Source: Bacteroidales bacterium (GTDB taxonomy: Bacteria > Bacteroidota > Bacteroidia > Bacteroidales > WCHB1-69). From it: DNA of 39,326 bases. The notes under the pieces were generated by a model. It ran no database searches. It saw only the letters and a list, made by a program, of their open reading frames with translations, and was not told the origin of the DNA. The stretch is from assembly GCA_024686335.1 (NCBI GenBank), contig JAILCI010000063.1, positions 1-39,326 of the forward strand. Direction: 5' to 3'. Within the stretch, counting starts at the first letter, position 1; every line of letters starts with the position of its first letter. Below are positions 1-10,038 of this stretch, one piece after another. A program made the position numbers and the translations under genes.

Positions 1-681
1 GAAAAAGAGAGGAAAACCACTATGAAAAGTATTGTAGATGTTCTACCTAAGAAAATTAAAGACATTTCTTCAGACGTAGATAATTGCAACTACTTTTTGA
101 CACACAAACACTCTTTGATTACAGAAAATGCAAAAGATATAGGCAAAGTATCTCCCGTTAATCTTATTTCCGATGTAATCACAAGCCCACCGTATTTGAA
201 CGGAACTAATTATTTCAGAAACACAAAGTTAGAACTGTGGTTTTTAAAACACATAAAAACTGAAATGGATTTGCGATATTTCAGAGATAAAGCATTAACA
301 AGTGGAATCAATGATGTTAAACGAGAATATGGACTTTTGCCTAATAAGACTCAAAGCCAATTGTTGAAACAAACATTACAAGAACTTGAACAAAGGTCTT
401 ATGACTCTCGCATTCCATTAATGGTGAAATGCTATTTTCAAGAAATGTATAATTTTTTCCAAGGATTGACAATACACTTAAGACAAGAGGCTAATATTCT
501 AATTGATATTGGTGATTCCATATTTTCAAATGTCCATATTCCAACGGATTTGATTCTTGCTGAGACAATAGATGTTTTGGGATATGCTCTCAATGAAAGA
601 ATTGTATTAAGAAATAGGACATCAAGGAATGGCCAAACTATTTCTCAGGTTCTTCTTAAGTTTACTTATTCTAAAAGATAA
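1..681 (+). CDS. DNA methyltransferase, 5'-truncated by window edge (probable N4-cytosine type)
   Basis: The frame is open to the left edge. The first ATG is at 22 with a GAGAGG stretch just upstream, but the gene probably starts outside the window. Counting from that ATG, residues 54-58 are TSPPY, the catalytic motif IV of amino-methyltransferases; the S-P-P-Y form usually goes with N4-cytosine enzymes. It is followed by LNGTNYFRNTKLELWFL, which resembles the same region of the next gene (TSPPF...WIRLWFLGW). No SAM-binding DPFxGxG motif lies in the 54 residues before it. The next gene has that motif about 190 residues upstream of motif IV, so the missing part should lie left of position 1. 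The stop (679-681) is 4 nt before the next start, so the two are cotranscribed. Together they look like the paired modification enzymes of a restriction-modification system. If ATG 22 is the real start, this would be a truncated remnant. Confidence 0.75.
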   Translation, partial: EKERKTTMKSIVDVLPKKIKDISSDVDNCNYFLTHKHSLITENAKDIGKVSPVNLISDVITSPPYLNGTNYFRNTKLELWFLKHIKTEMDLRYFRDKALTSGINDVKREYGLLPNKTQSQLLKQTLQELEQRSYDSRIPLMVKCYFQEMYNFFQGLTIHLRQEANILIDIGDSIFSNVHIPTDLILAETIDVLGYALNERIVLRNRTSRNGQTISQVLLKFTYSKR

Positions 682-685
682 TGTC

Positions 686-1816
686 ATGAGCAAATATATT
701 GATACTAAGTGGCGTAGATTTATTAAAGATATGCCCCATCATCAAATTCCTTTTTCTAAAAGGAATTGGGGAAATCCAAATCATTCCTTATGTTCGTATC
801 AAGGGAAACTAAAACCAGCTATAGCTTATCATCTTGTTAAGGTTTTTGTTCCTAAGGCTGGTGTGGTTTTTGACCCATTTGCTGGTGCTGGTACAATTCC
901 ATTTGAAGGTGCTCTTAATGGCATTACTGCTTATGGAATGGACTTAAGTCCATTAGCATACTATATAGCTTCTCCAAAACTTCACAAAAACAATGTGGAG
1001 TCTTGTGTTGACTATATCGAGAAGTTAAGTAACTTTATTGCTTCTGTGGAGATTCCAAGTGAATACATCAAAGCTAATAAAGATTTTGGATTTAATAAAA
1101 CAATCAAAGAATACTACCACCAAGACACCTTTATGGAAGTTTTAAAGGCGAGGTTGTTTTTTCAACAAAATCCACCCAAAACTTCAGAAGAAAAATTAGT
1201 ATTAGCCTCGTTATTACACATTCTTCATGGAAACAGACCTTATGCTTTAAGTAGGAAATCTCATCCCATCGTACCGTATGCTCCTTCAGGCGATTATATT
1301 TATAAAAATCTTGTTGAAAAACTAAAAATCAAAACCATAAAAGCAGCAACTGTTCAATTGCCAGATTGTTTTGTCGAAGGTGATATTATGTTGGGTGATT
1401 CTACAAAGGTTTGGCCTGATAATATTCATGATATTGATGCTATCATAACTTCTCCACCTTTTTATGATAGTACAAGGTTTTATCTTATCAATTGGATTAG
1501 GCTTTGGTTCCTCGGATGGAACTATGAAGATTTTGAAACAGAATCTCTTTCATTTGTGGATGAAAAACAAAAGACAGATTTTACAGTTTATGATACTATA
1601 TTTGAACAAGCAAAAGAAAGGTTAAAGACAAATGGTTATTTTGTCCTGCATCTTGGGAAAAGTGATAAATGTAATATGGGTGAGGTCCTAAGGCAAAAAG
1701 GAAAACACTGGTTCAAAAAAGCAAAATTGTATGATGAAAATGTAACTGATTGTGAATCATTCGGTATTAGAGACATTGGTCGAGTTACTTCTCACCAGTA
1801 TTTGATTTTAGAATAG
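686..1816 (+). CDS. DNA methyltransferase M2 (N4-cytosine/N6-adenine family), 376 aa
   Basis: Complete SAM-dependent DNA amino-methyltransferase. Residues about 38-44 read SYQGKLKP. The SAM-binding motif DPFAGAGT is at 63-70, followed by IPFEG, and the catalytic motif IV TSPPF at 255-259 is followed by a W-rich segment ending LWFLGW. I chose ATG 686, 4 nt after the upstream methyltransferase stop, over an upstream in-frame ATG at 629 that would overlap that gene. The stop codon (1814-1816) abuts the stop of the convergent HNH endonuclease gene. The likely role is to protect host DNA from that endonuclease. Two modification enzymes beside one endonuclease suggest an asymmetric target or separate strand specificities. 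The recognition sequence cannot be read from the protein. Confidence 0.88.
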   Translation: MSKYIDTKWRRFIKDMPHHQIPFSKRNWGNPNHSLCSYQGKLKPAIAYHLVKVFVPKAGVVFDPFAGAGTIPFEGALNGITAYGMDLSPLAYYIASPKLHKNNVESCVDYIEKLSNFIASVEIPSEYIKANKDFGFNKTIKEYYHQDTFMEVLKARLFFQQNPPKTSEEKLVLASLLHILHGNRPYALSRKSHPIVPYAPSGDYIYKNLVEKLKIKTIKAATVQLPDCFVEGDIMLGDSTKVWPDNIHDIDAIITSPPFYDSTRFYLINWIRLWFLGWNYEDFETESLSFVDEKQKTDFTVYDTIFEQAKERLKTNGYFVLHLGKSDKCNMGEVLRQKGKHWFKKAKLYDENVTDCESFGIRDIGRVTSHQYLILE

Positions 1817-2812
1817 TTAGACCAATCCCAATATTTTCTTATTTACATCGGACACATAATCGATTAAATGATTCTTGGTAATAATAGTTCGTAATTCCTC
1901 AACTCTATGGGGCAAATTTGTGTTGTTTCTAATATTGAGGAATTTATCAATTGCAGCGTTAACATCAATATTTGTATTATAAACAGGTTTTTTGCTCGAA
2001 ATCAAGCCTAAATCAGCTCCCGTTATTTTGGATAATTCGACCAGTTCTTGCTCTGAATAGAACTCGCTTGGCCATTTTGCTTTTTTTTGTTCATTTGCTT
2101 CCGATGAGAGGAGTGCTGCATTTTGAATGGTTAAAGGGTAAAAGTATTTAGCAGGAAGAATGTGGTCAACGTGCCATGAGCTTCTATTATTTATATCTAA
2201 TAGTTTTTTTGTCTTGAAACATCTACTACCAAATCTGTTAAAAAGGTCTTGAATATCTATCCTTGATTCCTCATCTTCATCTAAAACAGCCAATAAATCA
2301 CCCAGTCTTCTGTTGGCACCACCTTCTCTAAGCTGTTCTGGCGTTCTTTTAGGGTTTAATTTTGCATTAATTGCAGCTTTACAAGATTTACATTCAAGTT
2401 GTTTTTCAAGTACTCCAAAGGTTTTTCCTGTATGTTTTGCAAATTGTTCTGAGGGGAGAATTCTTCCACAAGTTTTACATTGTTTCCAATAATTTTCAGG
2501 TTTGGAAGTCGCTTCTCGAAAGAAGGCTTTCCAAAATCTTTCACAATTAATAGAAGATTTTTTTAAAAATTCACTTTGCCAATTCTCCAAGCTTAAAGGC
2601 AAATCGGAATATTTTGAATGAACATAACCGCAATATTTACATTCTAATGATAAATAGTTGTATGCTTCTTCTGGCGTTAAGAGCTTTTGGCCAACCTTAA
2701 AAAGGTTTATTTGTCTGCATTGTACACAAACAAACATTAGCCAAATATCCTTTTGGTCGACATCGGCAAGTTGGGAGATGCCTGTGACATTAATGGTTTT
2801 CCTTCTCGACAT
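1817..2812 (-). CDS. HNH endonuclease with zinc-finger pairs, likely restriction enzyme (331 aa)
   Basis: Four CxxC knuckles stand at residues 29-32 (CVQC), 58-61 (CKYC), 112-115 (CKTC) and 141-144 (CKSC), suggesting two zinc-binding modules for DNA recognition or folding. The C-terminal half has an HNH/beta-beta-alpha-metal core: HVDH at 214-217, N231, and NEQKK at 240-244. The frame extends upstream to 3055, but that part is low-complexity and unrelated. ATG 2812 gives a sensible MSRRKTINVTG start and has a TATTTTTG promoter element 16-23 bp upstream. It converges tail to tail, with no gap, on the methyltransferase pair, the expected layout for a type II restriction enzyme. Promoter separation from the methylase genes would allow restriction to be timed independently. 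Function is inferred from the HNH core and neighbours. Confidence 0.8.
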   Translation of the reverse strand: MSRRKTINVTGISQLADVDQKDIWLMFVCVQCRQINLFKVGQKLLTPEEAYNYLSLECKYCGYVHSKYSDLPLSLENWQSEFLKKSSINCERFWKAFFREATSKPENYWKQCKTCGRILPSEQFAKHTGKTFGVLEKQLECKSCKAAINAKLNPKRTPEQLREGGANRRLGDLLAVLDEDEESRIDIQDLFNRFGSRCFKTKKLLDINNRSSWHVDHILPAKYFYPLTIQNAALLSSEANEQKKAKWPSEFYSEQELVELSKITGADLGLISSKKPVYNTNIDVNAAIDKFLNIRNNTNLPHRVEELRTIITKNHLIDYVSDVNKKILGLV

Positions 2813-2827
2813 GTTTTTTATTTTTTG

Positions 2828-2835
2828 CAAAAATA
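2828..2835 (-). promoter_or_regulatory. Bacteroidetes -7 element (TATTTTTG) of the HNH endonuclease gene
   Basis: Reverse strand reads TATTTTTG, matching TAnnTTTG, 16 nt upstream of ATG 2812. The only TTG nearby is at shorter spacing than usual (13 bp), so only the -7 part is convincing. Confidence 0.35.
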
Positions 2836-2913
2836 AAAAATATCTGGACAATTTCACTTTTGATATTACTGAAACCCGTAAAACTCTGAAAATCTGAATT
2901 ATAATTAAAATAC

Positions 2914-2972
2914 GATGAGGTTTAGGTTCACTTATGCTTGTCAGAATCAAAAGTGAGACTCCAAACCTCATC
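2914..2972. repeat. 10-bp inverted repeat (GATGAGGTTT / AAACCTCATC)
   Basis: Perfect arms at 2914-2923 and 2963-2972 with a 39-nt loop. The right arm lies inside the 45-bp repeat that recurs downstream of the nuclease gene, so it may be part of that element. Confidence 0.6.
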
Positions 2973-2989
2973 CTCGATGTTCGGTTTTG
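2945..2989 (+). repeat. 45-bp imperfect direct repeat, copy 1 (upstream of nuclease gene)
   Basis: It matches 4461-4505 at about 38-39 of 45 positions without gaps. The last 17 bases (CTCGATGTTCGGTTTTG) are identical. The two copies bracket the 379-aa nuclease gene and nothing else, as expected of a cassette boundary or a small mobile element. The other possibility is a dispersed intergenic repeat. Confidence 0.65.
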
Positions 2990-3045
2990 GAGATATGAGC
3001 ATTGGGCCAATTTCTTCAGGACGAAGAATGGATAAATATGTATTT

Positions 3046-3076
3046 TTGTTGGCAAGATTTTTAAGTCATATTTTTG
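3046..3076 (+). promoter_or_regulatory. Promoter TTG-N20-TATTTTTG
   Basis: TTG at 3046-3048 and TATTTTTG at 3069-3076 with 20 bp between fit the Bacteroidetes housekeeping consensus. Transcription would begin near 3083, just before ATG 3101. That argues against the alternative TTG start at 3080. Confidence 0.55.
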
Positions 3077-3100
3077 TAATTGAAATTCAATAATTGCATT

Positions 3101-4240
3101 ATGAACAGCTTATTACGTGTACTTACGGAAAAGAGAAAAAAAGAATTATATGAAATAAAACACTCTCATCCTTTGAAATATCCTGAAGTGTATATTCCTT
3201 TTGACTTATATTATATTTTCCGTTCAAAACCCGCTTTGCCAAGCAAGTTGTATAGACCTTCTGAACCAATACGGCCCTCTTCTCCACGAAAACCATTAAC
3301 AGACATTCCGAAGCCAGTCCATTTCATATCTATTGCCATTATCCTGTTGATGATTGTCGGCATTGTTAAGGCCTCACAATTTTCTCTTGCTTTTCTTGTC
3401 GTATTCATCGCAATATTTTTTCTAACAATCCCCGTTTCTATTTACTATCTTCCTCATATCAAAGAGCAAGAAAAATATGCCAACGAACTCAACAAATACA
3501 AAAAAGAACTTGAAAGATATGACGTGGAAAAGGAAAGATATTTAATCAATCTTGCTGAATATGAAAAAAATATCGTTAAAATAAATGCAGAAATTGCAAA
3601 GATACAGTCTGTTGAAAACACCGTCAATCACAGGAAGAAACTTTTCAAAGAAAAATTCAATCATCCATTTGATAAGTTTACTCAACAATATTCAACAGAA
3701 ATAAAAAAGGGGGTGTCTGAACCGCTTTTCTATCGTTACATGAAAACACAATTAAACAAAAGTAATACCACCTGCGATTGGATGATTTTTGAAAATGGAA
3801 AAGTTTTGAAAACGAGTGAAGACGATGCTTACTATCCAGATTATGTTGTTGTTTGCGATAATTTAATCATAGACATAGAAATAGATGAGCCCTATGTGTA
3901 TGACAACAAAAAGCCAATTCATTATCAGTATTCTTCAATAAACAAAAATGGTACTGTATTCAAAAGCATAGATGAAGAACGAGACACTTTTTTTACAGAT
4001 AATAATTGGTGCGTTATACGCTTTGCTGAGGAACAAATTTTCAAAGAGCCATATAAGTGTTTTCTTTTGGTGAAGAAAATAGCAGAATCAATAATATCGT
4101 GTAAAGAACTTCCAGATTTTGAAAACGAGAAGGATTTTTGCGTTCTACCAGTAAACAAATGGTCGGAAACAGAGGCTCAACAAATGGCAGCGGATGACTA
4201 TAGAGATACGTATATTAACGCAATTTTTGACAGTTTATAA
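3101..4240 (+). CDS. Membrane-anchored PD-(D/E)XK-like nuclease (DUF559/Vsr-like), 379 aa
   Basis: N-terminal basic and Pro-rich segment (1-73), a hydrophobic stretch at about 75-118 that can form two membrane spans, a charged Lys/Glu-rich coiled coil (about 118-180), then a globular C-terminal domain. That domain has the order seen in DUF559/Vsr-type nucleases: PDY (D247), a beta strand ending IDIEIDEP (E260, D262), then RDTFF (R294, D295) and WCVIRF (R307). Family members typically show an IEVDG-like strand and a later RD...G..V.RF, so a nuclease fold is likely, though the Lys of a classic D-ExK site is not obvious. ATG 3101 is chosen because the promoter ends at 3076. The gene lies next to the restriction-modification genes and between imperfect 45-bp repeats, so an antiviral or anti-plasmid role at the membrane is plausible. 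This is inference. The AT-rich composition fits transfer. Confidence 0.7.
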   Translation: MNSLLRVLTEKRKKELYEIKHSHPLKYPEVYIPFDLYYIFRSKPALPSKLYRPSEPIRPSSPRKPLTDIPKPVHFISIAIILLMIVGIVKASQFSLAFLVVFIAIFFLTIPVSIYYLPHIKEQEKYANELNKYKKELERYDVEKERYLINLAEYEKNIVKINAEIAKIQSVENTVNHRKKLFKEKFNHPFDKFTQQYSTEIKKGVSEPLFYRYMKTQLNKSNTTCDWMIFENGKVLKTSEDDAYYPDYVVVCDNLIIDIEIDEPYVYDNKKPIHYQYSSINKNGTVFKSIDEERDTFFTDNNWCVIRFAEEQIFKEPYKCFLLVKKIAESIISCKELPDFENEKDFCVLPVNKWSETEAQQMAADDYRDTYINAIFDSL

Positions 4241-4281
4241 TGTTTGTGTACTTTTTGCGCGGCTTTCTATCAGCAGATTAG

Positions 4282-4419
4282 GCTGTTTGGTCTGATGCCA
4301 ATGGCGTGCCGCAAGGCGGGAACAGAATGGGCAAAATCCTGATGATGATTCGAGATTGCCTCCGCAACAATACTGAGCCAACCTACAATAAAGACCTGTT
4401 GAATGAGAAGGGTATATAA
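4282..4419 (+). pseudogene. C-terminal remnant of an unidentified gene
   Basis: A 45-codon frame without a start codon, preceded by in-frame stops, ends in TAA at 4417-4419. It reads AVWSDANGVPQGGNRMGKI..., then a Leu/Met/Arg-rich helix and a short tail ending LLNEKGI. The composition is protein-like (Gly-rich turn followed by an amphipathic helix), unlike random AT-rich intergene. I do not recognise the family. It looks like the tail of a gene deleted when the flanking nuclease cassette formed. Confidence 0.35.
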
Positions 4420-4672
4420 TTCTTAGGTGAAAGACTTGTTTTCTGACGCTGAACAATCCGTATCAAGAATGAGACTAAAAACCTCATTCTCGATGTTCGG
4501 TTTTGACAATGATGAGGTTATTTCCTCCGAAATCTGACCTCGAAATCCAACCTCAACGCCCAAATAGCCCCATTTGCCCATGACAAAAACATAGGAATTT
4601 GTGCTACTTTTGTCGGTGAAAGTGCTACTTTTGTCAAGAATCCTGCCAGTTTTCACTTCTTGATTTTTTATA
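4420..4672. other. Intergenic stretch with repeat copy 2 and tandem -7-like boxes
   Basis: No gene seen. It holds the second 45-bp repeat, an 8-bp inverted repeat AACCTCAT/ATGAGGTT (4480-4487, 4512-4519), and a near-tandem GTGCTACTTTTGTC repeat giving two TACTTTTG boxes at 4605-4612 and 4626-4633. Neither box has a TTG at standard spacing. Confidence 0.5.
4461..4505 (+). repeat. 45-bp imperfect direct repeat, copy 2 (downstream of nuclease gene)
   Basis: Partner of 2945-2989, same orientation, with a few substitutions (for example GAGACTCC versus GAGACTAA). See copy 1 for interpretation. Confidence 0.65.
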
Positions 4673-4703
4673 TTGTTTTGTAAATGAAAAAGTTATAGCT
4701 TTG
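4673..4703 (+). promoter_or_regulatory. Promoter TTG-N20-TAGCTTTG
   Basis: TTG 4673-4675 and TAGCTTTG 4696-4703, 25 nt before ATG 4729. The stretch from the -7 box to the ATG resembles the leader of the paralogous gene at 8049 (ATAG[C/A]TTTGC, then AACTAAAAA, then ATATGG), so the two share a promoter origin. Confidence 0.55.
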
Positions 4704-4728
4704 CTGCCTAACTAAAAACAATAAGAAT

Positions 4729-4947
4729 ATGGAAGCGATTAAACTGACAAACATGGAGAACAATGAGGTATTCATCAACCTCAGCCAAGTATCAACCTTA
4801 AACCGAAGGGGGCGGGGAACAACGGTGATTTTCGACAATGGGACTAAAGTGGAGGTGCGAGAGAGCTTGACCATTGTCATGTATTTGTTGGAGCATTATG
4901 TTTTCAATATTGAAGCTGACGATATTTTACAGCAATCATTACTATGA
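4729..4947 (+). CDS. FlbD-like mini-protein, paralogue 1 (72 aa)
   Basis: Small soluble protein, MEAIKLTNMENNEVFINLSQ..., alternating hydrophobic strands with a basic NRRGRGTTV hairpin and a C-terminal helix ESLTIVMYLLEHYV. The pattern (KLT, then FINL, then TVI, NG, KVEVRES) resembles the FlbD fold of flagellar operons, but no flagellar genes are present, so only the fold is implied. The second copy at 8049-8237 shares ENNEVF/ENEVVY, INLS/VNLS, RGRGT/NGKGT and SxTIVxYLLEHYV. Start supported by the promoter at 4673-4703 and by alignment with the paralogue. A separate gene with its own -7 box follows. The function is unknown. A DNA- or RNA-binding regulator of a mobile region is one possibility. 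Confidence 0.72.
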   Translation: MEAIKLTNMENNEVFINLSQVSTLNRRGRGTTVIFDNGTKVEVRESLTIVMYLLEHYVFNIEADDILQQSLL

Positions 4948-4955
4948 AAAAATGC

Positions 4956-4963
4956 TACCTTTG
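4956..4963 (+). promoter_or_regulatory. -7 element TACCTTTG before the 243-aa gene
   Basis: TACCTTTG fits TAnnTTTG, 34 nt upstream of ATG 4998. No TTG at ideal spacing. Confidence 0.35.
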
Positions 4964-4997
4964 CAGTCAATTTTCATTATAATGTAAATAAACAGAT

Positions 4998-5729
4998 ATG
5001 GAAAATAAGAACAACGAACATCTGATAAATAAAGAATTACTGGATACTCTTAATAATTTCAACATCCATAGCCATTTTGATAGCATTGATGTGGAAAAAA
5101 CAAGAATGTTAAGTGATAAAGAGGAGAACATTGCAAAATATAAAGAGCACCTTAATGGCATCCGAGAGTTCATAGATTCTTTTGATAGTTGTATTGTTAG
5201 TGATGAAATTATGGGTGAGTGGAATATGATAAAAAAAGACATTAACAACTATCTCTTTAACACTAACATAGCACATGATGGAAGTTGTCCCAAAATTAAA
5301 GATTTTTGTATCCGCGAGTTAGCCCACCTAAATTCTATTAAAAACAAATTGGGGTATAATAATATTGAGTATCAAATGATTTGTTCACTTGTAGCAGAAT
5401 CCGTGATTCTTGATGTTGAATCAAACATGTTATTGGTAGTTACAATATGTATGATTAATCGCAACGATTATACAGGCAGGCTAATAAACAATCAAGCATA
5501 TTGTAAAATGTTAAAAGATTGCTTGAACGCATTGGGGAATATAGAATCACTCAATATGGAATACCAATACAAGTACGAGCGGTTCTCTCCTTTTTACAAA
5601 ACACTTTCAGAAGAAGGACGAAAAAAAGGATTAATTGAGACTCGTAAGCAAGAAGAAAAATCAGGTTGTTTAGGAGTAACTATGCTGGTCATATTAAGTA
5701 CCCTTTTTTGCTCGTTTTTGCTAATGTAG
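4998..5729 (+). CDS. Hypothetical protein with C-terminal membrane anchor (243 aa)
   Basis: Not recognised. The protein is acidic and helix-rich with many Asn/Asp residues. Residues about 1-100 are predicted helical, and about 120-165 form a more hydrophobic core (QMICSLVAESVILDVESNML). A Lys/Glu/Arg-rich stretch (about 205-222) leads into one hydrophobic segment at the very C terminus (GCLGVTMLVILSTLFCSFLL, about 223-242). That is the layout of a tail-anchored protein facing the cytoplasm. It follows the FlbD-like gene by 50 nt but has its own -7 box. Orphan, AT-rich cargo beside restriction genes may be defence-related, but nothing in the sequence proves this. Confidence 0.7.
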   Translation: MENKNNEHLINKELLDTLNNFNIHSHFDSIDVEKTRMLSDKEENIAKYKEHLNGIREFIDSFDSCIVSDEIMGEWNMIKKDINNYLFNTNIAHDGSCPKIKDFCIRELAHLNSIKNKLGYNNIEYQMICSLVAESVILDVESNMLLVVTICMINRNDYTGRLINNQAYCKMLKDCLNALGNIESLNMEYQYKYERFSPFYKTLSEEGRKKGLIETRKQEEKSGCLGVTMLVILSTLFCSFLLM

Positions 5730-5798
5730 TCATTATTAATGTGAGTTTTTGAAGTATAAAAACTTGATGTTGAAAGTTTGCTTTAAAATCCCAAGTAT

Positions 5799-6143
5799 AT
5801 GAACAACGATTTTAGAATGAGCCAAGGACAGTTACGCTATCTTTACGATAGTGCCAAAGGTCGGATGGCATATCATCCCGATTATACGGAAAAGTGTCAG
5901 AATATAGTTGATGAATGCCCTCGTTTTGAGAGTGAAAAAGAGGCTACGAAAATGGCCATGAAGATGGAGAAAGAACATCCTGATGGAACATTCAGGGTGT
6001 GGGCTACTCTTGAGAAAGATGAGGAGTTTTATCGCATCAATGCCCCTTGGATAGTAACGACAAACGGTGACCAAATGAAAGCAGCCGAATATATTGGAAT
6101 GGTTACCAAAGAAGAAGTTTACATCTTAATTCAGACAAGATGA
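5799..6143 (+). CDS. Hypothetical protein (114 aa)
   Basis: Not recognised. It is soluble, with no signal peptide or membrane span. The sequence MNNDFRMSQGQLRYLYDSAKG is followed by a Cys pair about 10 residues apart (QNIVDECPRF) and a central Lys/Glu/Met helix. It ends in short strands (FRVWATLE, APWIVTT, VYILIQT). The size and fold pattern suggest a small alpha/beta protein such as an immunity or regulatory partner, but this is a guess. No clear TAnnTTTG box precedes it. It may be read from the upstream promoter (69 nt gap). The stop at 6143 is followed by a short AT-rich gap before the next frame. Confidence 0.55.
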   Translation: MNNDFRMSQGQLRYLYDSAKGRMAYHPDYTEKCQNIVDECPRFESEKEATKMAMKMEKEHPDGTFRVWATLEKDEEFYRINAPWIVTTNGDQMKAAEYIGMVTKEEVYILIQTR

Positions 6144-6195
6144 TGTGTTTTTACTCAATCATGTTTTTCAGCATAAATAATTAACAAAGATTGAC

Positions 6196-6624
6196 ATGTC
6201 GCGAAAAAGCTCAATACAATACAATCCGAAGTTGAGCGTCAAAGAAAACGCTATTCTTAACAACGTCTCTGAAAGTGGAATCTATTACCACATTAGAAGC
6301 CAATCCATAAACCGTGAAGAAGACAGGGCTAATAACCTCATCGCCAAAATCACTCAAGCCATAAAGAACAATCCAGAGGCATCACCGTTCAAAATTTCCA
6401 AAAACCGACACCAGATACAGTCCAGAGTTCTTGAGTGTCTTCATTTTCCCCTCTTTATACAATTCACCCAAAGCTACTGGAGCAACTTATCCTCTATAGG
6501 CACCATATCGCTTAATGCTGAGCAGGTAAGTACGATTAAAGATTTTCTTTGTTTGGTTCTCTGTCACTTTCAGATATTGGACGTGAACTATAAGTCAGTA
6601 AAGGTCTATAAGTATTCAAGATAG
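6196..6624 (+). CDS. N-terminal helix-turn-helix fragment, probably truncated gene (142 codons)
   Basis: Residues 1-50 (SIQYNPKLSVKENAILNNVS, then ESGIYYHIR) look like a complete N-terminal helix-turn-helix of the kind found at the start of larger proteins on Bacteroidetes mobile elements: an 'ENA..N.VS...I.Y.I' helix pair followed by a basic linker. After about residue 62 the composition changes and becomes rich in Cys, Phe, His and Leu without domain character, as if the frame had run into unrelated DNA. I read it as the head of a larger gene fused by deletion to non-coding sequence. The ATG follows AACAAAGATTGAC, with no clear ribosome site. Confidence 0.45.
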   Translation: MSRKSSIQYNPKLSVKENAILNNVSESGIYYHIRSQSINREEDRANNLIAKITQAIKNNPEASPFKISKNRHQIQSRVLECLHFPLFIQFTQSYWSNLSSIGTISLNAEQVSTIKDFLCLVLCHFQILDVNYKSVKVYKYSR

Positions 6625-6668
6625 CTTTAAGTCGCTGTCGTTGAGGTTGTTTGAGTTGTGTTTAAGTG

Positions 6669-6732
6669 AAAGGGCATTGCCTTTATGCGTTGAATCCTAT
6701 CGTATTCAACGAAAACACTTTTCAAGTGTTTT
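6669..6732. repeat. Three adjacent stem-loops
   Basis: AAAGG/CCTTT (6669-6673, 6680-6684), CGTTGAAT/ATTCAACG (6688-6695, 6704-6711) and AAAACACTT/AAGTGTTTT with a 3-nt loop (6712-6720, 6724-6732), almost without spacers. Dense hairpins like these occur at recombination or transfer sites and in structured RNAs. Confidence 0.6.
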
Positions 6733-7158
6733 GCTGCAAACTCACAGCTGAATGAGCTCCAGAACAAGGTACAGTTATCCTTATAGGGAAAAAAAGCGCA
6801 TTTGACACAACCAGCAAGTTCAACTTCACACAACCGTTTTCTTTACCCAGACCAAAGGGGCTCTCCCCTGTGGAATCCCGCTTTCCGAAAGGTGACAAGC
6901 GGGCTTGTGTGAGCGGTGGTGGTACCACCTATATGCTGGCCATTTTTGACGGTGAAGGGGTCTGTCACTCTCGCTTTGATGTCTCCCACACTATCTGTGC
7001 GGTACTGCCACCCTCCGTCTCTGCCTACCTTTATACTGATGCTATCTCGTTAGTGTAGGCTTATCACCCCATTCATCACCTTGCGGGGTGCCGTCTGCCA
7101 ATTTGAAGTTTTGTTTGAACACCAGCTTATCAGCCGTCGTTCCCTCGTGTCTTCATTA

Positions 7159-7171
7159 TTGTAATATACAA
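7159..7171 (+). repeat. 13-bp direct repeat TTGTAATATACAA, copy 1
   Basis: Identical to 7789-7801, exactly 630 bp apart, same orientation, bracketing the HAD gene. It is itself nearly palindromic. Confidence 0.55.
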
Positions 7172-7234
7172 TAAATATCTAGCATTTTCAAAAAAAGATG
7201 AGGTGCTGAAGAAGATGTATTGTTAGGCCTCCCC

Positions 7235-7765
7235 TTATCCTACTAGGGACAGGAGGTCAAGAGGTGAGTATAGTCTAACTGTCGGGTTAGTTTGGTCCAG
7301 CATTTCTGGCTCCAGAGACCCCCAGTAGCAGGCCCCAGAAAGAAAACCGAACTCGTTGGCCTGCTCTACGTCCGATGCTTCGTCTCCTATGTATATTATC
7401 TCACTGTTTTTCAAGCCTTTATACTTTTCGTGCTGCATGGCTATGTCGAACAGGACGGGTTTGGGTTGCGCCCGATAAGGGTATTTGCTGTTACCATACC
7501 TCGTTACCATGGGGTCAAAGTTCAATTTATTGTATTTCAGCACCTTGGACACCATTGTTTTCGTGTTCCTAGAAACAATCCCCACAGGTACGTGGCCCAG
7601 CTTTGTAAACACTTGCTCCCACCCGTCAAACAGCGGATAGTCGGCTATTTTAGCCAAAATTGTATCCCAGTCGGGTTTTCCTTGTAGGTACGGTTTGGCG
7701 GCCCTTGTGTCGAAAAGGGTTTGGTCGAAGTCCAACAGAATTGCTTTAACTTTTACGTCGTTCAT
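7235..7765 (-). CDS. HAD-superfamily hydrolase, phosphatase-like (176 aa)
   Basis: Cytosolic haloacid-dehalogenase fold phosphatase. Motif I is LLDFDQTLFDT with the nucleophile D12 and acid D14. Motif II is the Ser in GIVSRNTK. The motif III Lys lies in AQPKPVLF, and motif IV is IYIGDEASDVEQA, supplying the Mg2+-binding Asp residues. All four motifs are intact and the short cap is typical of PGP/HAD-1 subfamily enzymes. The substrate is unknown. ATG 7765 is chosen over an upstream TTG at 7801 that falls within the 13-bp repeat and a poly-A/T tract. The gene stands alone, opposite in strand to its neighbours, between two identical 13-bp repeats in an AT-rich island. It may have arrived as a unit. 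Confidence 0.85.
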   Translation of the reverse strand: MNDVKVKAILLDFDQTLFDTRAAKPYLQGKPDWDTILAKIADYPLFDGWEQVFTKLGHVPVGIVSRNTKTMVSKVLKYNKLNFDPMVTRYGNSKYPYRAQPKPVLFDIAMQHEKYKGLKNSEIIYIGDEASDVEQANEFGFLSGACYWGSLEPEMLDQTNPTVRLYSPLDLLSLVG

Positions 7766-7788
7766 TTTAAAAATTTTTAAGTTCTCAC

Positions 7789-7801
7789 TTGTAATATACA
7801 A
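7789..7801 (+). repeat. 13-bp direct repeat TTGTAATATACAA, copy 2
   Basis: Identical to 7159-7171. It lies 24 nt upstream of the HAD start codon, so it could instead be an operator or promoter part of that gene. Confidence 0.55.
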
Positions 7802-8011
7802 AAAAATGAGAGGAAAAAAAATACAAGCAAAACAAAAAATCCTCCGAAAAATCGCCCCCTAATCAAACCTCCACCAATAAATGGCCAAAATTGGGTGAGC
7901 AAAAACGAAGCCGTTTCTGCCAGTTTTCGACGCGATTCTGCTAGAAATCTTATCAAGCCTGCATATTCGCATTTTCGTTATTTTTTTCGTGTTTTCTATG
8001 TCTAAAAATCA

Positions 8012-8019
8012 TAGATTTG
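8012..8019 (+). promoter_or_regulatory. -7 element TAGATTTG before FlbD-like paralogue 2
   Basis: TAGATTTG, 30 nt upstream of ATG 8049. The leader resembles that of the gene at 4729. Confidence 0.4.
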
Positions 8020-8048
8020 CCGTCATACAAACTAAAAAAAACATTAAT

Positions 8049-8237
8049 ATGGCATTTTTAAAACTAACAAGCAAAGAAAACGAGGTGGTTTACGTCAACC
8101 TCAGCAAAGTTGTTGCCTTTGAAAGAAATGGGAAGGGTACACGTGTAAAATATGAGAGCGGAAAAACCGAGGAGGTCAAAGAATCATTTACAATAGTGGA
8201 ATATCTATTGGAGCATTATGTAGGTGAAGTTATTTAA
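8049..8237 (+). CDS. FlbD-like mini-protein, paralogue 2 (62 aa)
   Basis: MAFLKLTSKENEVVYVNLSK...: the same beta-rich core, basic NGKGT hairpin and final helix ESFTIVEYLLEHYV as the 72-aa protein at 4729, ending ten residues sooner. The frame runs upstream to 7989, but only ATG 8049 aligns with the paralogue's start and lies after the TAGATTTG promoter box. As at 4729, the next gene downstream is an unrelated orphan with its own -7 box. Two paralogues with related leaders in the same island suggest duplication of a regulatory module or two elements of one family inserted side by side. The function is unknown. Confidence 0.7.
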   Translation: MAFLKLTSKENEVVYVNLSKVVAFERNGKGTRVKYESGKTEEVKESFTIVEYLLEHYVGEVI

Positions 8238-8273
8238 AAACAACGTATCATAGCTAATTCTCACAATTATTTC

Positions 8274-8281
8274 TATCTTTG
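8274..8281 (+). promoter_or_regulatory. -7 element TATCTTTG before the 237-aa gene
   Basis: TATCTTTG followed by GCCG, 24 nt upstream of ATG 8305; fits TAnnTTTG. Confidence 0.42.
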
Positions 8282-8304
8282 CCGTCGTAAAATCGACAAC
8301 AACT

Positions 8305-9018
8305 ATGAAGAGAATTACTGATTTTCTGAATGAATGTAGCAAATGCGAATTGGAGCCTCCCGTTTACAATGGTTGTTCAGATGATGACCAATATTGTGTT
8401 TACATTGACAACCTATATAAAGGAGCTGTATCTGCGATAATGGAGGTTGATAGCGAGTTGAAATTGCCAGTCGTCAAAACGAGATTTTTTGAGGTGAAAG
8501 ATATAATGATTCATGCGGATTTTCCTACACCCGATACCCTGACAAGAATAAAACAAGATTACATGACAACCAAGAGTGAAAGCCTGAAAAAAGACTACAC
8601 TTATTTAGTTATGGCCAAGAAATGTCGGGACATGCAGTTGTATTACTTTTTAGAGTTCTCTAAATATCTTCAATTAGATGATTGTGAAGTTGAATCTTTA
8701 AAATTAGATTTTGGATTAATTCAAAGCGAGCAAGGTGATGAAAAAAACCAAAAATTGGATTCAGAAATAAACACTACGGATGAATCTGTCTCGGTCAACA
8801 GTAGTGATGATGCAGATTTTATAAAGGGAATACGAGAGTTAGCAAAATACTTGAGGTGTGGCATCAATAAAGCTGAAGCCATATCCAAGAGTGGTGTGTT
8901 AAAAAGGAGAGGTGTTCAGTTTATGGTTGGGAATGCTAATTATTTCAGCAAAAAGAAAATGGAGGAAGTCTTATCTAAAAATCCCGATTTATTCAAGAAG
9001 GAGGTGCACTGGCACTAA
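8305..9018 (+). CDS. Hypothetical protein with C-terminal excisionase-like helix-turn-helix (237 aa)
   Basis: Residues 1-140 are an unrecognised, mostly helical domain with an early Cys cluster (NECSKCELEPPVYNGCSDD) and an acidic character. A low-complexity acidic linker (about 145-170, rich in Ser, Asp, Asn) follows. The last 65 residues (GIRELAKYLRCGINKAEAI, SKSGVL, GNANYFSKKKMEEVL) match the plan of Xis/MerR-like helix-turn-helix domains common on Bacteroidetes mobile elements: helix, turn with a small residue, recognition helix, wing ending in a hydrophobic-Lys pair. DNA binding is therefore likely. It is the last gene before tRNA-Ser, the usual place for integration or excision functions, but no recombinase is present. 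Confidence 0.6.
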   Translation: MKRITDFLNECSKCELEPPVYNGCSDDDQYCVYIDNLYKGAVSAIMEVDSELKLPVVKTRFFEVKDIMIHADFPTPDTLTRIKQDYMTTKSESLKKDYTYLVMAKKCRDMQLYYFLEFSKYLQLDDCEVESLKLDFGLIQSEQGDEKNQKLDSEINTTDESVSVNSSDDADFIKGIRELAKYLRCGINKAEAISKSGVLKRRGVQFMVGNANYFSKKKMEEVLSKNPDLFKKEVHWH

Positions 9019-9020
9019 AT

Positions 9021-9040
9021 CCTGCACATTTTCCTGCACA
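9021..9040 (+). repeat. Short direct repeats CCTGCACA (9021-9028, 9033-9040)
   Basis: Two identical octamers 4 bp apart beside the tRNA-Ser gene. A comparable tandem of AAAAATGCACC lies at 38675-38696 by the recombinase near the other tRNA-Ser. They may be recombinase or excisionase arm sites. Confidence 0.4.
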
Positions 9041-9051
9041 CGATAAAACAA

Positions 9052-9094
9052 AAACCATCATAAGTTTTTGAAAATATGTTACTTATGATGGTTT
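9052..9094 (-). terminator. Rho-independent terminator of tRNA-Ser(UGA)
   Basis: Perfect 14-bp stem AAACCATCATAAGT / ACTTATGATGGTTT (9052-9065, 9081-9094). Read on the minus strand it follows the tRNA and ends in TTTTTGTTTT. It may also stop readthrough from the 237-aa gene. Confidence 0.75.
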
Positions 9095-9098
9095 CTTG

Positions 9099-9183
9099 CG
9101 GAGAGAGAGGGATTCGAACCCCCGGAGGTGTGACCCTCAACGGTTTTCAAGACCGCCGCATTCGACCGCTCTGCCATCTCTCC
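9099..9183 (-). tRNA. tRNA-Ser (anticodon UGA)
   Basis: The reverse strand folds as a class II tRNA: acceptor GGAGAGA/TCTCTCC, D-arm with GCAGAGCGGTCGAA, anticodon loop CTTGAAA giving TGA, a long variable arm, T-loop GTTCGAATC and discriminator G. CCA is not encoded. It marks the boundary between the AT-rich island and the core, consistent with use of its 3' end as an integration site. Confidence 0.93.
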
Positions 9184-9193
9184 TTTGAGGGCG

Positions 9194-9201
9194 CAAAAGT
9201 A
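9194..9201 (-). promoter_or_regulatory. -7 element TACTTTTG of tRNA-Ser(UGA)
   Basis: Reverse strand TACTTTTG, 10 bp upstream of the tRNA 5' end; fits TAnnTTTG. Confidence 0.5.
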
Positions 9202-9267
9202 CACTTTTTTTTCACATAGACATCTATGCAAATAATAAAATTTGTCAAGTGGTTATAAATAAATATG

Positions 9268-10038
9268 TTAACCTTCAATTCTCGTCACAACTCCCCGCTC
9301 ACTGACGTACAAAGAATCGTCTAAATTGAAGCATTTTCGCAGACTTTCTGGCGTCAAGACCGCATGGATGTCATTATGGTCCAGAATCTTGCCCTCCCGC
9401 ATCAACAGGGCCTGCCGCGCATACTCAATGGCCATGGTGAAGTCGTGGATGACTATGACGACCGTAGCCTTCTCCACACTATTCAACTCCGCCAAGATAT
9501 CCATGATCTCAAACTTGTGCGAGACATCCAGATTGGAGAGAGGCTCGTCGAGGAGCATCACCGGCGTCTGCTGCGCCATGGCCCGGGCGATGAGCGTCCG
9601 CTGTAGCTCTCCCCCACTCAATGCGCTGATATTACGGTCTTTATATTGCGCAATATGACATCGCTCTAACATCCGCATCACTATCTCCTCATCATCCCCA
9701 GACTGCATCTGCCAATGCTTCTGATAGGGATTGCGGCCCATCATGACCATCTCGTAAACCGACATGTCGAAAATGGTGTCCTGATGCTGCGGCACAAAGG
9801 AGACCTTGCGGGCAAAGTCCATGTGGTTATATTGCCGCAACTCCTGTCCGCCGACGAGGACCTGTCCGGAAGAGGGCGTCAACAGACCCGCCATACACTT
9901 CAAGAGCGTTGTCTTGCCAGAACCATTAGGCCCGACGACCGCACAGAACTCACCCTCCTCTATCGTCACCGAGAGGTCACGGAAGATAGGCTGCTGATGA
10001 TACTGAAAATCAATATGTTGAACTTCTATCCGAGGCAT
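9268..10038 (-). CDS. ABC transporter ATPase, FecE/BtuD type (iron-siderophore, haem or cobalamin uptake), 256 aa
   Basis: Cytoplasmic ATPase subunit of a metal-chelate importer. Walker A is GPNGSGKTT (about residue 36-44), the Q-loop is in SFVPQHQDT, and the signature is LSGGELQR. Walker B is PVMLLDEPLSNLD and the switch His is in VIVIHDF. The length and the Q-loop/D-loop spacing fit the FecE/BtuD/HmuV group. ATG 10038 begins 1 nt after the mutL stop (10040-10042), so translation is probably coupled. A TTG nine bases earlier is less likely. No permease or binding protein is adjacent. Its partners must be elsewhere, or this is an orphan ATPase. It is the last gene of the 81-aa protein-mutL-ATPase operon. 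Confidence 0.88.
   Translation of the reverse strand: MPRIEVQHIDFQYHQQPIFRDLSVTIEEGEFCAVVGPNGSGKTTLLKCMAGLLTPSSGQVLVGGQELRQYNHMDFARKVSFVPQHQDTIFDMSVYEMVMMGRNPYQKHWQMQSGDDEEIVMRMLERCHIAQYKDRNISALSGGELQRTLIARAMAQQTPVMLLDEPLSNLDVSHKFEIMDILAELNSVEKATVVIVIHDFTMAIEYARQALLMREGKILDHNDIHAVLTPESLRKCFNLDDSLYVSERGVVTRIEG

Follow-up and report, generated by a model that had tools for sequence, protein, structure and literature searches.

Analysis of a 39,326-nucleotide contig from a Bacteroidales bacterium (GenBank assembly GCA_024686335.1, contig JAILCI010000063.1, forward strand; the whole stretch is called the window below) drew attention to a gene whose 379-residue product appears to be an endonuclease of the DUF559/Vsr-like PD-(D/E)XK type that is tethered to the membrane and was gained by horizontal transfer. 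Its most likely task would be to cut foreign DNA on entry into the cell, a reading that we hold with about even confidence. The gene runs from an ATG at 3101 to a stop at 4240 on the plus strand, and in its product a short motif at the N terminus is followed by a membrane hairpin of two helices, then by a helical stalk and finally by a DUF559/Vsr-like domain at the C terminus. A previous sequence-only reading of this DNA had described two membrane spans, a coiled coil and a nuclease-like domain in the 379 residues; hydropathy and an AlphaFold2 model agree with this layout, and the motifs it named are present (PDY at residues 246-248, IDIEIDEP at 257-264, RD at 294-295 and VIRF at 305-308). The features of the gene are as follows:

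3101..4240, plus strand: gene for the 379-residue, putatively membrane-anchored DUF559/Vsr-like nuclease (open reading frame (ORF) list; model m36583d436c7c, predicted local distance difference test (pLDDT) 87.7)
3317..3442, plus strand: two predicted transmembrane spans, residues ~73-91 and ~96-114 (hydropathy, charges, helices 75-89 and 94-156)
3443..3658, plus strand: helical stalk, coiled-coil-like, residues 115-186 (model helices 94-156, 158-168 and 171-186; weak coiled-coil hidden Markov model matches)
3656..4219, plus strand: predicted nuclease domain, residues 186-373 (domain model, Foldseek and profile matches to 3hrl, invariant residues)
3839-3841, 3878-3880, 3884-3886 and 3920-3922, plus strand: codons of D247, E260, D262 and H274, respectively
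3045..3076, plus strand: possible Bacteroidetes-type promoter, a candidate only, picked by eye with what we take to be the consensus (TTTG at 3045-3048, 20 nucleotides, TATTTTTG at 3069-3076)

Anchoring in the membrane is supported by prediction. The two spans are joined by a short uncharged loop and flanked on both outer sides by basic residues, and because of this arrangement both protein termini are predicted to be cytoplasmic. The AlphaFold2 model of the whole protein, made with an alignment of 60 sequences, has a pLDDT of 87.7 and a predicted template modeling score (pTM) of 0.75; it contains helices at residues 75-89, 94-156, 158-168 and 171-186, followed by a mixed alpha/beta C-terminal domain. 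Although the stalk gives only weak matches to coiled-coil models, "coiled coil" is a fair name for the modeled helices. Among the 60 aligned relatives, 53 have at least one predicted span N-terminal of the domain's motif, and most of the seven without one are short rows of the alignment. The N-terminal YP..P motif is present in 51 of them.

Structural models also support a restriction-endonuclease-like fold (DUF559/Vsr-like, PD-(D/E)XK superfamily) for the C-terminal domain. Modeled alone, the domain reached a pLDDT of 92.7 and a pTM of 0.87, and a Foldseek search with this model aligned it to 3hrl, an endonuclease-like protein of Neisseria gonorrhoeae (NGO0050), with a probability of 0.99, a TM score of 0.81 over the length of 3hrl and an E value of 0.14; structure prediction supports the nuclease fold suspected from the sequence. 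The lowest E value in this search was 0.014 (Bax1), and the best 50 of its 283 rows are mostly nucleases. Many nucleases (Bax1, Can2, RecU, MGME1 and the R2 element, all of which we take to be PD-(D/E)XK folds) were also among the 47 matches of the whole model, together with AF1548, which is listed as unknown. A sequence profile search had 3hrl as its sole match (E value 0.014). A threshold of E<=0.01 gave DUF559 (PF04480) matches for 36 of the 60 domain sequences, the strongest at 1.2e-6; the window protein itself has no PF04480 match at E<=1, and its domain alone has no Pfam match at E<=0.01. D247, E260, D262, E263, H274, R294, F308, E310, C320 and W354 are invariant in all 60 aligned relatives, and from fold and invariance the residues D247, E260, D262 and H274 would form the catalytic center that cleaves DNA. 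This family shares its predicted fold and some elements of its motifs (H..D..R..VxRF in the alignment with 3hrl) with the DUF559/Vsr-like endonucleases, to which it adds the membrane hairpin, the stalk, an IDIEIDEPY signature and the N-terminal YP..P motif. A Caulobacter DUF559 protein, VsrA, is named Vsr-like in the portion of PMC12907096 considered here.

Several lines of evidence support a foreign origin of the gene by horizontal acquisition. Its GC content is 0.33, whereas values in 145 sub-windows of the remaining contig average 0.489 and fall no lower than 0.359, and GC at its third codon positions is 0.306 compared with 0.731 in mutL. It is present as a single copy in its own genome, and no full-length relative was reported among 39 other congeneric genomes, 18 of which match at E<=0.001 in the C-terminal part only (from residue 231 or later). 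The restriction-modification (R-M) genes that the sequence-only reading had placed beside it were recovered as two type II methylase matches and an HNH-type protein:

22..681, plus strand: part of a probable DNA methyltransferase near the contig edge (PADLOC MTase_II 1.9e-37, C-terminal part of the model only; no Pfam match at E<=1)
629..1816, plus strand: probable DNA methyltransferase (PADLOC MTase_II 6.1e-17; Pfam UPF0020 1.5e-7, N6_N4_Mtase 3.2e-7)
1817..2812, minus strand: HNH/endonuclease VII-like protein, probable restriction partner (phrog_1035 endonuclease VII, E=1.1e-16), with Cas9-model matches around its HNH region and a Pfam HNH_4 match (E=0.008) below the cut-off of that family

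Restriction genes also recur near relatives of the nuclease. By Pfam, hsdM, hsdS or hsdR lies close to at least seven of 43 Bacteroidota relatives (loci L053, L059, L063, L067, L074, L085 and L111), a lower bound since the scanned genes were chosen by clustering and by eye. At L063 the order on one strand is hsdM, hsdS, a 282-residue ORF, the nuclease gene and hsdR, and at L046 an Mrr-type restriction gene is located 25 bases upstream of the nuclease relative. In a density test, HsdR (PF04313) had 84 matches in 42 Bacteroidota genomes (176.4 Mb), and within the 0.536 Mb of flanks examined it was found at three of 42 loci (L067, L085 and L111) against 0.22-0.26 expected (P about 0.002). Two loci that would raise this result were left uncounted: L063, where PF04313 has an E value of 1.5e-4, over the limit, and the other HsdR domains are strong, and L074, the one of the 43 loci that lies outside the 42 genomes. 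L051 was also uncounted, its in-frame ORF having 76 residues against an open frame of 826. We also tallied PADLOC matches of neighboring genes, using 115 of 123 listed genes of 120 to 1300 residues (the eight genes from L090 and L092, two nearly identical versions of a single locus, were omitted); the gene calls are greedy ORF picks, and some short "genes" among them are not real. The control, 99 genes of 17 stretches from the same phylum, gave 15 families at 1e-10, among them no R-M family and some other names of defense models. Because the tally counts redundant models and the control is small, we rely on the HsdR density test.

The mechanism that we propose is modeled on SNIPE (PD-lambda-1), and the best reading by this analogy is that the window protein works like SNIPE without being a member of it. 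The parts of the SNIPE paper used here (PMC13190303, 2026) likewise describe a single gene with an inner-membrane anchor near the N terminus and a C-terminal cytoplasmic nuclease; 7% of SNIPE homologs have two predicted spans, and the system is presented as a previously unknown, place-based form of self/non-self discrimination that operates at the site of injection. SNIPE carries DUF4041 and a GIY-YIG nuclease (PMC13190303), neither of which is detected by Pfam in the window protein at E<=1; the nuclease is instead DUF559-like, and a helical stalk takes the place of DUF4041. The word DUF559 is absent from the main text of PMC13190303. By this analogy, the two-helix hairpin would anchor the protein, whose two ends are predicted to be cytoplasmic, in the inner membrane, and the stalk would hold the nuclease at a set distance from it, as in the model. 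Tethering would keep the nuclease off the nucleoid and near sites of DNA entry, where its catalytic center would cleave DNA, so that place, not sequence, would tell self from non-self. In this way the protein may stand guard at the membrane. Zorya and Kiwa resemble it as membrane-tied defense at DNA entry and are, according to the sections of PMC12904381 consulted, multi-protein systems; the window protein has no PADLOC match to their parts.

The family apparently has no name and occurs in Bacteroidota and cyanobacteria. Against PADLOC-DB 2.0.0 (5027 models) the window protein gave one match, LmuB at an E value of 0.045 over residues 120-176, and five relatives (L046, L071, L063, L103 and L079; limit 0.01) also gave one, PDC-M18B at 0.0065 in L063; none of these appears convincing. 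No description of a membrane-bound DUF559 family was found in titles and abstract beginnings of the open-licence PMC literature. A sample of 104 genomes of the taxonomic family, its own genus included, contained one more long relative, G488 (residues 49-372), and eight genomes match in a phylum sample of 395 (own genome included), one of them, L026, over the stalk only. Scanning genome contigs with an 11-row alignment yielded 328 relatives, the best 80 of which are from Bacteroidota and cyanobacteria by title, and the same kind of query found five relatives in viral contigs; the single-protein query had no match in either set, and the alignment query alone succeeded. Relatives occur in 40 of 72,556 plasmid records. 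A search of 50,697 phage records had no match, a result that makes the idea of entry defense neither stronger nor weaker. On the tree, the distribution over two phyla needs two changes, while 12% of bootstrap trees need one. Four longer proteins with a DUF559-like domain were also noted (L037:8648-10621, L038:5844-8450, L118:1848-4268 and L125:7551-9308). Besides this domain, the L038 protein contains a VWA domain and a span, and an AAA_11/AAA_12 helicase-type gene starts two bases after it. Inspection by eye alone suggests a further, RecB-like C-terminal domain, to which Pfam gave no match in L038.

A number of results weigh against a membrane-tethered nuclease devoted to defense. With regard to the fold, Foldseek gave no match at E<=0.001 with the domain model and no PDB match at that level among the 47 matches of the whole model, and non-nucleases such as chimallin score like many nucleases. 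In addition, the window protein has no match at E<=1 to the nuclease models of Pfam, PADLOC, NCBIfam and PHROGs. With regard to genomic context, no partner gene is constant across loci and the neighbors are heterogeneous; the examined flanks of 39 of the 42 Bacteroidota loci lack a PF04313 match; a cyanobacterial clade sits in a conjugation operon (e.g., L103:2-14412); in L090, L092 and L093, 7 bases separate the gene for a form of 207-208 residues with a transmembrane segment from an SbcC-like gene downstream of it (Pfam checked in L090 only, L090:7842-11597); and the congener matches (L002-L019) are ORFs of 442-463 residues with the same domain and no transmembrane segment. A search of a viral structure library had no match at E<=0.001; the best, at 0.004, was an unnamed protein, and endonucleases by name are among the rows that follow.

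The cyanobacterial loci bring in the first rival explanation, that the nuclease serves conjugative plasmids or integrative and conjugative elements, either in handling transferred DNA or in keeping competing elements out at the membrane. Nine Calothrix-type loci have an AAA gene downstream of the nuclease gene on the same strand, immediately so in eight, and seven of the nine have homologs of the L103 TrbI-like and TraD/TrwB-like proteins upstream and downstream, which were identified by Pfam in L103 and by gene clusters in the other loci. Furthermore, the 40 plasmid records that contain relatives include 24 predicted to be conjugative and six predicted to be mobilizable; ten organism groups are named in these records, all presumably cyanobacterial, and 11 further groups are not named. 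However, none of the eight window proteins scanned is a conjugation gene product, the window copy lies beside R-M genes, and no conjugation cluster is common to the Bacteroidota loci (clusters in at least three loci considered). We consider this explanation unlikely. As a separate observation, a 730-residue YpsA/SLOG-type protein is encoded at L079:5494-7686, its end overlapping the start of the nuclease gene, and its cluster also precedes the nuclease in L077 and L108.

A second rival, which we regard as improbable, is a membrane-held nuclease of DNA repair or recombination (Vsr-, SbcCD- or SSB-linked) with no part in defense. It draws on the SbcC-adjacent short forms, on the domain in the anchorless protein of 18 of 39 congeners, on the name of the Caulobacter protein (PMC12907096, in part) and on C-terminal tips that resemble those of the single-stranded DNA-binding protein SSB. 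An [LIVM]PF end, mostly after acidic residues, was found in seven of 98 family ORFs but in one of the 948 remaining ORFs (120 residues or longer) from the same loci (Fisher P 4e-7, with loci that are not all independent); the count covers the 98 loci with a listed family ORF and includes related loci as well as L060 and L121, which resemble one locus. The relatives with these tips (-DDLPF and variants) are:

L042:7180-8316, L046:5978-7273, L062:7992-9296, L066:261-1382: relatives with an SSB-like tip
L071:7938-9038, L078:451-1062, L100:7716-8732: further relatives with an SSB-like tip

All seven are from Bacteroidota by title, and the tree requires four changes to account for the trait. Eight genomes contain 16 SSB matches, eight of which end in PF, one per genome, while the other eight end otherwise. 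In each of the seven hosts of tip-bearing relatives the PF-ending SSB ends in LPF, and the pair in L046 shares DDDLPF. SSB tips are established docking sites for repair enzymes, as stated in the portions of PMC7913777 and PMC10164576 seen, and the nuclease tips may mimic them. Several points speak against a repair role: occurrence is patchy, the window gene is low in GC and associated with R-M genes, a membrane anchor would be odd for chromosome repair, and the window protein ends in FDSL, without an SSB-like tip (the SSB of its host ends in DEMPF).

Many defense nucleases act as abortive effectors, and a resting membrane nuclease that is activated by phage and destroys host DNA would fit the plausible sensor-effector layout of a membrane stalk plus nuclease, yet the protein has no recognized sensor domain and no conserved partner gene, and we rate this rival just as low as the repair one.

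Further examination of the window concerned its repeats and boundaries:

2941..2989, plus strand: direct repeat, left copy, 49 nucleotides
4457..4505, plus strand: direct repeat, right copy, 49 nucleotides, 86% identical to the left copy
4274..4436, plus strand: what appears to be left of the 3' end of a NADAR-domain gene, located between the repeats and sharing 79% identity with a section of the congener ORF L146:6276-6887 (Pfam NADAR E=3.4e-13 for the protein of that ORF)
9098..9183, minus strand: tRNA-Ser(TGA), beyond the low-GC region (ARAGORN, Rfam, GC)

The imperfect direct repeats, previously given as 45 bp, are 49 nucleotides long, and the nuclease gene is indeed the only intact gene between them. 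A 26-base core of the repeat has two matches in the window and none in shuffled sequences, and when the right-hand 360 bases were searched against the 2.74-Mb genome, no place beyond these two matched. The RNA folds of the two copies exceed shuffled sequences somewhat in stability (z -2.67 and -2.13), but the two are unlike each other. With two copies only at the sensitivity of that genome search, no recombinase among the enclosed ORFs and the NADAR remnant inside, the bracket was rejected as a mobile cassette, and this part of the sequence-only reading was given up. The tRNA-Ser gene is a possible island boundary; Rfam found only tRNA in window positions 1-9400, and the tRNA stretch was the sole match of positions 1-9300 to plasmid DNA.

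Taken together, defense is the best of several ideas for the window protein. What stands of the defense candidate first proposed from the sequence is the low-GC DNA beside R-M genes, the type I R-M genes near at least seven of 43 relatives, the enrichment of HsdR and the Mrr-type gene at L046. What tells against it is the clade in the conjugation operon, the short forms next to sbcC and the anchorless congener protein, which, in the five of its 18 loci that were inspected (L002-L005 and L017), has a similar gene setting; homologs in unrelated conserved core loci had been named beforehand as a finding that would count against defense, and these three kinds of loci touch on it. A defense role is therefore likely but not exclusive, because other clades occur on plasmids, next to SbcC or within a conjugation operon. 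More tentatively, and with considerable doubt, we suggest that the relatives form an undescribed, single-gene class of membrane-tethered DUF559 proteins that would guard DNA-entry sites against phage and plasmid DNA, and that in some members the SSB-mimicking tip (-DDLPF) would draw SSB-binding repair enzymes onto the entering DNA. The tips offer a concrete handle on the partners of these proteins. An unrelated second nuclease family laid out like SNIPE and spread over two phyla would point to repeated use of membrane tethering and would supply testable candidates in Bacteroidota and cyanobacteria.
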